A program made the position numbers and the translations under genes. Shown piece by piece: positions 1,139 to 3,251 of a stretch of 38,187 nucleotides of DNA; within the stretch, counting starts at the first letter, position 1; each line of letters begins with the position of its first letter. This stretch comes from a virus. The stretch lies in the IMG/VR virus record IMGVR_UViG_3300035670_000613, positions 1-38,187 of that record; one strand, written 5' to 3'. The notes under the pieces are model-generated. The model did not search any database, had not been told where the DNA came from, and saw only the letters and a list, made by a program, of their open reading frames with translations.

Positions 1139-1483
1139 TTAAGCCTCCAGGTTAAGTTGTTTAGCCAGCGCGGGGTGCAGGTACACCGAAGGTGTAGCGG
1201 GTTTACCAAGGAACGTCCCTACGCAGACGGCGTAGGTATCGGCATCCAGTTCCAGGACAGTCTCTGCCCTTCCGCCGTTGAACTGAGGGGCACCAGTCGA
1301 AGGGATATCCACAGGTCTACCGTCCTGCACCAGGATGTAGCTAGACCGTGAACCGCCATCCCAGTAGGTACCAGAACAGGTAACCCGTTGGGTAACAGTT
1401 ACGATGGTTTTGTGTTTCCGAGAGTTAACACCAGCCTGCTTTAACAGGGTCTGGATGATGGGGTCTTTAGCACTGACGATCAT
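1139..1483 (-). CDS. Hypothetical protein, 114 aa, mainly beta
   Basis: Start ATG 1483 with GAGGAGG 7 nt upstream, overlapping the previous stop as ATGA. The sequence contains a run of short beta-type segments (KTIVTVTQRVTCSGTYW at about 25-41; SSYILVQDGRPVDIPS at about 47-62) and a C-terminal pattern VYLHPALAKQLNL. It may be a small beta-barrel or a phage accessory factor. I do not recognise a family. Confidence 0.65.
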   Translation of the reverse strand: MIVSAKDPIIQTLLKQAGVNSRKHKTIVTVTQRVTCSGTYWDGGSRSSYILVQDGRPVDIPSTGAPQFNGGRAETVLELDADTYAVCVGTFLGKPATPSVYLHPALAKQLNLEA

Positions 1484-1701
1484 TTGTATGCCTCCTCGAT
1501 GGCCTTAGTTGCAACGCGGTTGGGGTTAGGTTCCTCGCAGACGCCCTCACCGATCAGGTGAGAGGCTGTCCTACCGAACCAGCCCTGAAGCTTCCAGGCC
1601 AGTCCGGTATCTATCAGGTACTGCCAAGCTTCGATGACCTGCTCTTCGGATTCGGCTTGCACAAAGCCTTCCGCAATGCCTACTGCGTCAAATGTATTCA
1701 T
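1480..1701 (-). CDS. Small conserved phage protein, 73 aa
   Basis: Start ATG 1701 overlaps the preceding stop (ATGA), and its stop overlaps the next start. The pattern AVGIAEGFVQAESEEQVIEAW followed by YLIDTGLAWKLQGWFGR resembles a short family I have seen in proteobacterial phages (possibly DUF7417, from memory). The core is two helices with a conserved LQGWFGRTA motif near residues 38-46. No biochemical role is known to me. Translational coupling places it inside the early operon. Confidence 0.7.
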   Translation of the reverse strand: MNTFDAVGIAEGFVQAESEEQVIEAWQYLIDTGLAWKLQGWFGRTASHLIGEGVCEEPNPNRVATKAIEEAYK

Positions 1702-2228: not shown

Positions 2229-2278
2229 GTCTGAGACCCCCGAAGGGGTTTCGGCTATTGAAGCCTCGTCAGTCAGAC
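2229..2278 (-). ncRNA. Type I hammerhead self-cleaving ribozyme
   Basis: Read on the - strand. Stem I is GUCUGA (2278-2273) with UCAGAC (2234-2229), 6 perfect pairs. The core CUGACGA is 2272-2266. Stem II is GGCU (2265-2262) with AGCC (2256-2253), loop UCAAU. GAAA is 2252-2249, of which the last A pairs with U2236. Stem III is ACCCC (2249-2245) with GGGGU (2240-2236), closed by a UUCG tetraloop. The cleavage nucleotide C17 is 2235 in a canonical GUC, so the cut falls between 2235 and 2234. All invariant hammerhead positions (C3 U4 G5 A6, G8 A9, G12 A13 A14, A15.1-U16.1) are present. Stem I is open, hence type I. The UGA stop of the upstream gene (2275-2273) lies inside stem I. Confidence 0.93.
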
Positions 2279-2758: not shown

Positions 2759-2959
2759 TTAAACGATGAAGTCAGGATGGGTATCAATCCCCAAAGAAGA
2801 GGCCAGTGCTAGCATCTCTTCCTGATCCTTCCTGCGTAGTGCTGCCCGGATTGCTGCGGATATGGATCGAGCCGCATATCCCAGAATGTCCTGGTTGCCG
2901 GGGTTGGATTCAACGAACTGTTTTGCGTATCCGCAGACTCTCTGCTGGTGCTTGGTCAT
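2759..2959 (-). CDS. Helical hypothetical protein, 66 aa; first gene of the leftward operon
   Basis: ATG 2959 with AGGAGA about 6 nt upstream. The ribosome site lies just 3' of the type III hammerhead. The product (MTKHQQRVCGYAKQFVE..., then ARSISAAIRAALRRKDQEEM) is helical with alternating charged and small residues, ending at DTHPDFIV. Its stop codon is part of a GTTTAAAC site (2757-2764). Function unknown; it is the promoter-proximal early gene, a position often used for host-takeover proteins. Confidence 0.65.
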   Translation of the reverse strand: MTKHQQRVCGYAKQFVESNPGNQDILGYAARSISAAIRAALRRKDQEEMLALASSLGIDTHPDFIV

Positions 2960-2972
2960 AAAGTCTCCTGGT

Positions 2973-3022
2973 GGGTTTCGCCCTTATGGGCTCGTCAGTA
3001 CCAGTTCTGCACTGGTAGACCC
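2973..3022 (-). ncRNA. Type III hammerhead self-cleaving ribozyme
   Basis: Read on the - strand. GGGU (3022-3019) then C17 (3018), giving the GUC site; cleavage falls between 3018 and 3017. Stem I is UACCAGU (3017-3011) with ACUGGUA, 7 perfect pairs closed by loop GCAGA. The core CUGACGA follows directly, then stem II GCCC/GGGC with loop AUAA, then GAAA (2979-2976). Stem III is GGGU with ACCC (2976-2973), 4 pairs, and is open, hence type III. All invariant core residues are present. The ribosome site of the first leftward gene (start 2959) begins a few nt downstream, so this is a self-cleaving 5' leader; the 3' product would keep a 58-nt leader. Confidence 0.94.
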
Positions 3023-3222
3023 GATTTTGTTCACTAGAGACACATGTCCCTGGTTGGCGGTATTCCCAACCGTTGGAGCCTTCCCCCAACCGAGCCTTTG
3101 TTTAAGCCCCCAAAGTCCAGAGGGCACCCCATTCAACGCTGGGGCACTGCGTCTTCGATTCTGTAGATCCCGGTAGGTAAGTGGTGATCAGGTGAATCGG
3201 TACTGCTTACTGCTTAGACCGA
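3023..3222 (-). promoter_or_regulatory. Long 5' leader of the leftward early operon, no gene
   Basis: About 190 nt between the predicted leftward start site and the type III ribozyme contain no credible ORF on either strand. Several short inverted repeats are visible, for example GGTTGG (3052-3057) with CCAACC eight bases on, CTTTG/CAAAG around a C-rich loop near 3097-3116, and CCCC/GGGG near 3127-3145. I recognise no riboswitch or tRNA. The ribozyme would cut most of this leader off the mRNA. Confidence 0.45.
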
Positions 3223-3251
3223 ATGTTAGTGCCAAAGTTTAAACGATGCAA
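3223..3251 (-). promoter_or_regulatory. Predicted sigma70-like promoter of the leftward operon
   Basis: On the - strand, TTGCAT (3251-3246) and TAACAT (3228-3223) are separated by exactly 17 nt; each matches 4 of 6 consensus bases. Transcription would start near 3216, giving a long leader that ends in the type III hammerhead. A GTTTAAAC palindrome (3237-3244) fills the spacer, a natural place for an operator. This is a pattern call without experimental support. Confidence 0.45.

Follow-up and report, generated by a model that had tools for sequence, protein, structure and literature searches.

Organization of the leftward operon

The window, i.e. the whole stretch of 38,187 nucleotides that was analysed, carries terminase, portal, capsid and tail genes on its rightward side and a leftward unit of small Shine-Dalgarno-led ORFs on the minus strand (Table 1). 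The latter starts with the ORFs 2959-2759, 2743-2672, 2660-2586, 2583-2473 and 2476-2273, and continues with 2209-1925, 1928-1698, 1701-1480, 1483-1139 and more. The 66-residue product of the first cistron has no match in Pfam or PHROG, and searches of the two databases gave no useful family for the flanking small proteins, except DUF7417 for a 73-residue ORF. This ORF (1480-1701, minus strand) matches DUF7417 (PF24192) and phrog_3908, and its homologues recur in several phages related through the large terminase (TerL). Upstream of the first cistron, the predicted leader (3023-3250, minus strand) contains no convincing ORF. The original prediction had termed the operon early; our search for a sigma-70 promoter of the leftward operon found no credible site to back this label.

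A palindrome, GTTTAAAC, occurs at 14 sites in the window against 0.7 expected, including positions 399, 2757, 3237, 3493, 4469 and 4618. In the related contigs L137, L138 and L141 it sits just past TTGACA, upstream of the leftward genes, and it may serve as an operator.

Table 1. Features of the leftward operon and its two hammerhead ribozymes
Feature	Position	Strand	Details
Predicted 5' leader, ahead of the type III cleavage site	3023-3250	-	many predicted hairpins
Type III hammerhead ribozyme	2973-3022	-	intact core, three stems; predicted cleavage between 3018 and 3017
Type III stem III	3022-3019/2976-2973	-	4 bp
Type III stem I	3017-3011/3005-2999	-	7 bp
Type III core CUGACGA	2998-2992	-	
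Type III stem II	2991-2988/2983-2980	-	4 bp
Type III GAA	2979-2977	-	A15.1 is 2976, paired with U 3019
First cistron of the operon, 66 aa	2759-2959	-	AGGAG Shine-Dalgarno
Cistron, 67 aa	2273-2476	-	ORF end 2273, type I ribozyme start 2278
Type I hammerhead ribozyme	2229-2278	-	stems I/II/III of 6/4/5 bp, UUCG loop III; predicted cleavage between 2235 and 2234
Cistron following the type I hammerhead, 94 aa	1925-2209	-	AGGAGG Shine-Dalgarno; start 19 nt past the ribozyme

Architecture of the two hammerhead ribozymes

The segment 3022-2973 of the minus strand reads GGGU-C-UACCAGU-GCAGA-ACUGGUA-CUGACGA-GCCC-AUAA-GGGC-GAA-ACCC, and its sequence is confirmed as that of a complete type III hammerhead, with every element of the original prediction in its place. 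It possesses a CUGACGA...GAAA core (consensus CUGANGA...GAAA) followed by CCC and then ACCAGGAGACUUUAUG, the A15.1-U16.1 pair and an H17 residue at a GUC^U cleavage site, which maps right after base 3018, where cleavage had been expected. Stem III is open and stems I and II are capped by loops, as in the type III topology, and all 7, 4 and 4 bp of stems I, II and III are of Watson-Crick type. The minimum-energy fold of the isolated RNA is the hammerhead itself. Stem II pairs as GCCC/GGGC, against GGCC/GGCC in close relatives, a compensatory difference that amounts essentially to one event and is thus limited evidence. The ATG of the first cistron lies at 2959, leaving 13 nt past the 3' end of the ribozyme, and upstream of the ribozyme there is no credible leftward gene; therefore the type III copy is a leader element, which agrees with its proposed location in the 5' leader of the leftward operon.

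When both strands of the whole window were scanned with a descriptor for all three hammerhead topologies, exactly two complete hammerheads emerged, the second of which belongs to type I and is absent from the original prediction. It reads GUCUGA-CUGACGA-GGCU-UCAAU-AGCC-GAA-ACCCC-UUCG-GGGGU-C-UCAGAC from 2278 to 2229 on the minus strand, and contains the core and three helices, with stem I open and stem III capped. By eye, its flanking sequences and loops (AG...CAAC, UNAAU loop) are in the style of many phage copies. It occupies the gap between the cistrons 2476-2273 and 2209-1925 of one operon: the UGA stop codon of the former falls within the 5' strand of stem I (GUC-UGA|CUGACGA), and the AGGAGG of the latter follows a few bases 3' of the ribozyme.

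Significance of the matches

The same descriptor gave 10 matches in 100 dinucleotide shuffles, mostly weak and one of comparable strength. At the gathering threshold Rfam yielded no match anywhere in the window. The type III copy reached 34.8 bits with RF00008 (Hammerhead_3), short of the gathering score of 48.5 (window-wide E 6.1e-4), and RF00163 (Hammerhead_1) sees the type I copy weakly, at 23.8 bits against a cut-off of 34. A score above the Rfam type III threshold was one of the checks that the original prediction had set for itself, so the value of 34.8 bits formally counts against it; however, clear type I and type III hammerheads in the phage contigs L050, L129, L137, L138, L141, L045 and L221 also fall short, and the cut-off is therefore too strict to be informative here. 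To keep the test free of circularity, two covariance models were trained, one on 12 type I and the other on 12 type III hammerheads, all from other phage contigs; the window and sequences closely related to it were excluded. These models gave 48.7 bits (E about 1.2e-14) for the type III copy and 65.9 bits (E about 1.5e-20) for the type I copy, the E-values of the tool being rough. Both ribozymes are the top matches in the window by a wide margin, with the next matches at E of at least 0.4, and each model also weakly touches the other ribozyme. A type II descriptor match in another contig, L012 (score 8.5), was rejected as being at chance level.

Conservation in related phages

Comparison of the large terminase placed 023Pt_psg01, HTVC027P, DSL-LC04 and HTVC023P as the nearest isolated phages, with 51-59% identity. 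The stretches taken from these four phages contain no hammerhead above chance level, and the leader region shows no DNA similarity to isolated phages. Of the relatives by terminase, 80 with identities of 76-89% were kept. The type I ribozyme is present at the corresponding place, leftward of terS, in L137, L138 and L141, and further type I copies occur in L176, L187, L194/L196 and L159. Of the 26 TerL loci that extend 3.5 kb or more upstream of terL, 7 carry a hammerhead there; given this patchy distribution, phages of the group can do without the element. A search of the other TerL relatives yielded no type III copy. A same-virus record (G001, 56.8 kb) matches the window exactly in the ribozymes and at 100% identity in the proteins, and was excluded as independent conservation.

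The type I loci of the relatives were fetched by protein and were also found by model R1. Their stem II changes from GGCU/AGCC to GGUC/GACC with pairing kept, and paired changes are also seen in stem I; as the descriptor required pairing, the conservation counts lean towards structure. L141 has a homologue of the 94-residue cistron in the equivalent position. On the other side, the upstream genes differ among L137, L138, L141 and the window, and the ribozyme stays. Inspection by eye showed that the upstream stop codon of L138 is positioned as in the window, that of L141 is the UGA of the core, that of L187 is a UAA directly before the core, and that of L137 precedes the ribozyme by about 8 nt.

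A further 47 phage stretches, which are partly non-independent and include several near-duplicates, carry near-identical type III copies where two genes meet. These copies comprise 16 distinct sequences with a mean identity of 93%, set in 19 different combinations of upstream and downstream genes, and three gene families lie on the upstream side in one contig and on the downstream side in another.

A separate feature was noticed in two of the TerL relatives. L187 (about 1530-1480, minus strand) and L159 (about 1715-1670, minus strand) share a similar leader hairpin just before the first leftward gene, consisting of CCGUCAGC...GCUGA and then a UU/UCACUUUCA-like stretch.

Placement of phage hammerheads at gene junctions

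A scan of viral contigs with a pattern of hammerhead stem II and core returned at least 120 stretches, in which the descriptor identified at least about 170 hammerheads, frequently lined up on one strand in arrays of as many as seven. We compared the placement of each ribozyme with that on its own antisense strand, calling ORFs by simple rules, for the matches listed and later loci, most of which had been found by motif. Among these, a Shine-Dalgarno-led start codon lies within 40 nt downstream of 61 of the 110 type I ribozymes (antisense, 1 of 101), 36 of the 60 type III ribozymes (1 of 59) and 28 of the 38 type II ribozymes (1 of 37). In the same set of listed matches and later loci, an upstream stop codon within -6 to +12 nt of the 5' end accompanies 51 of 110 type I copies against 4 of 101 on the antisense strand. 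This type I stop codon is the core UGA in 11 cases and the codon just before the core in 10; the core-UGA count alone is no evidence of selection, because an ORF entering the core stops there in one of three frames. Overall, the junctions compared here tend to show a start codon about 20 nt past the ribozyme, a stop codon at the 5' end of type I copies and a strong bias to the coding strand. These statistics favour mRNA processing and predict exact RNA ends.

In phage contigs L026 (104-1035, minus strand), L226, L248 and L216, type II hammerheads line up on one strand, with up to four in 1 kb. In the cultured Streptomyces phages Spernnie and phiScoe1, type II copies lie between small genes, some of them above the Rfam cut-off.

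Proposed mRNA processing and alternatives

The two hammerheads probably cleave in cis and process the leftward polycistronic mRNA of this tailed phage, which is known from environmental sequence. The type III ribozyme would remove the leader immediately ahead of the first ribosome-binding site, and the type I ribozyme would cut between the cistron ending at 2273 and that starting at 2209, both acting co-transcriptionally. Self-trimming of the leader, as originally proposed, is plausible; it is incomplete as a description, since the second hammerhead downstream would bring the number of cuts in the operon to at least two. Hammerheads in general leave a 2',3'-cyclic phosphate and a 5'-hydroxyl. 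Each cut is thus expected to put the former on the upstream RNA and the latter on the downstream mRNA near its Shine-Dalgarno sequence, and the groups of cistrons would become separate mRNAs that could differ in stability and translation. The anatomy, significance, conservation and coding-strand junctions described above were observed directly; cleavage in vivo, these end structures and an influence of the two ribozymes on mRNA stability are what we infer. Points against the scheme are the stem III of only 4 bp in the type III copy and its low folding probability in the full leader, where shuffled leaders behave much alike, together with the patchy occurrence of hammerheads among the TerL relatives and the lack of a type III copy in those searched. 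A 5'-hydroxyl is not favoured by the 5' sensor of RNase E, and cleavage of a 5'-hydroxylated substrate is reported to be low, with direct entry possible (PMC4191395). Perreault et al. (2011) proposed the same mRNA processing for clustered phage hammerheads, and reported cleavage in vitro for three tandem sets, of which the Agrobacterium tumefaciens triple was also cleaved in E. coli (PMC3088659). Coupling to translation might be added to this scheme, in that a ribosome terminating at the stop codon in stem I or the core UGA would cover the ribozyme and delay or gate its cleavage. We regard such coupling as unlikely; if true, cutting of the operon would depend on translation of the upstream gene.

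The exchange of genes offers another reading of the same junctions, in which the ribozymes act mainly as conserved punctuation, homologous recombination at near-identical junctions reshuffles accessory genes, and cleavage is secondary. The 16 near-identical type III sequences with their 19 gene combinations in 47 stretches, the three families found on either side of the ribozyme and the changing upstream genes of the type I copy in L137, L138 and L141 are in line with it. However, the core and the pairing are kept with compensatory changes, which recombination would not need, although part of this was required by the descriptor and search patterns. As the main role, punctuation appears quite improbable, and it is compatible with mRNA processing. 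Two hammerheads in one transcript would also yield exactly the ends for RtcB-type ligation, and the coordinates agree with excision of a 783-nt RNA (3017-2235) that bears the intervening cistrons and could be closed into a circular mRNA. Against this, a search of the 56.8-kb G001 record for an RtcB or RNA ligase (PF01139, PF09414) came back empty, so a circle would need the RtcB of the host, and Perreault et al. saw neither circular nor spliced products when they sought them for tandem hammerheads (PMC3088659). This reading seems very unlikely.

The leader itself might act as a switch, turning the type III ribozyme on and off through pairing of GGCUCGGU with the cleavage-site strand AUCGGGUC. 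Indeed, when 2955-3250 is folded at minimum energy, the cleavage strand pairs with the leader, and adding the leader to 3250 lowers the probability of stem III to 0.004-0.025 in thermodynamic folding without tertiary contacts. Yet dinucleotide-shuffled leaders depress stem III to a similar degree, with 62 to 122 of 150 shuffles at or below the observed value across six settings, and no conserved leader is available for covariation. An evolved switch is not supported by these results and seems extremely unlikely. Nor do we give much credence to both copies being decayed or chance hammerhead-like sequences without activity. Their Rfam scores under the curated cut-offs would fit such a view; the perfect cores, the E-values of about 1e-14 and 1e-20 with independent models, the compensatory changes in relatives and the presence of two copies on the coding strand of one operon make it scarcely credible.

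Comparison with known hammerheads

Published work already covers the class, its presence in phages, clusters of mixed types and positions right ahead of a start codon. In the study of Perreault et al. (PMC3088659), clustered phage and prophage hammerheads likewise flank single genes or short blocks in one transcript and are of mixed types; unlike in those clusters, the carrier here is a TerL relative of 023Pt_psg01, HTVC027P and DSL-LC04. The same study describes HHphage of the haloviruses HF1 and HF2, which lies 13 nt before the first-ORF start of a polycistronic unit, as the type III copy does; it is a variant hammerhead from viruses of halophilic archaea, whereas the type III copy of the window has a consensus core. 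A stop codon embedded in stem I or the core, as seen here, goes unmentioned in the passages considered. The present analysis adds a new pair of members and a quantified junction rule with an embedded stop codon, which was not found in the literature searched, the coverage of which is incomplete; the addition is modest.

Compared to RF00008 and RF00163, the two ribozymes of the window share the core, the cleavage site and the order of stems, and differ in loops and stem lengths of a phage style that is poorly covered by the models. Since the Rfam cut-offs miss many phage ribozymes, annotation relying on them under-reports this class. The record stretches shown for the pelagiphages HTVC131P, HTVC019P and Jormungand have no RNA feature annotated at their type I hammerheads, which lie near 1496-1558, upstream of MarR/integrase genes. 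These cultured SAR11 phages resemble the window in stem II, core sequence and layout, and differ in belonging to the Autographiviridae, in a longer stem III and in the genes around it. Comparable ribozymes in cultured phages, such as HTVC019P and the Streptomyces phage Spernnie, make the processing directly testable.
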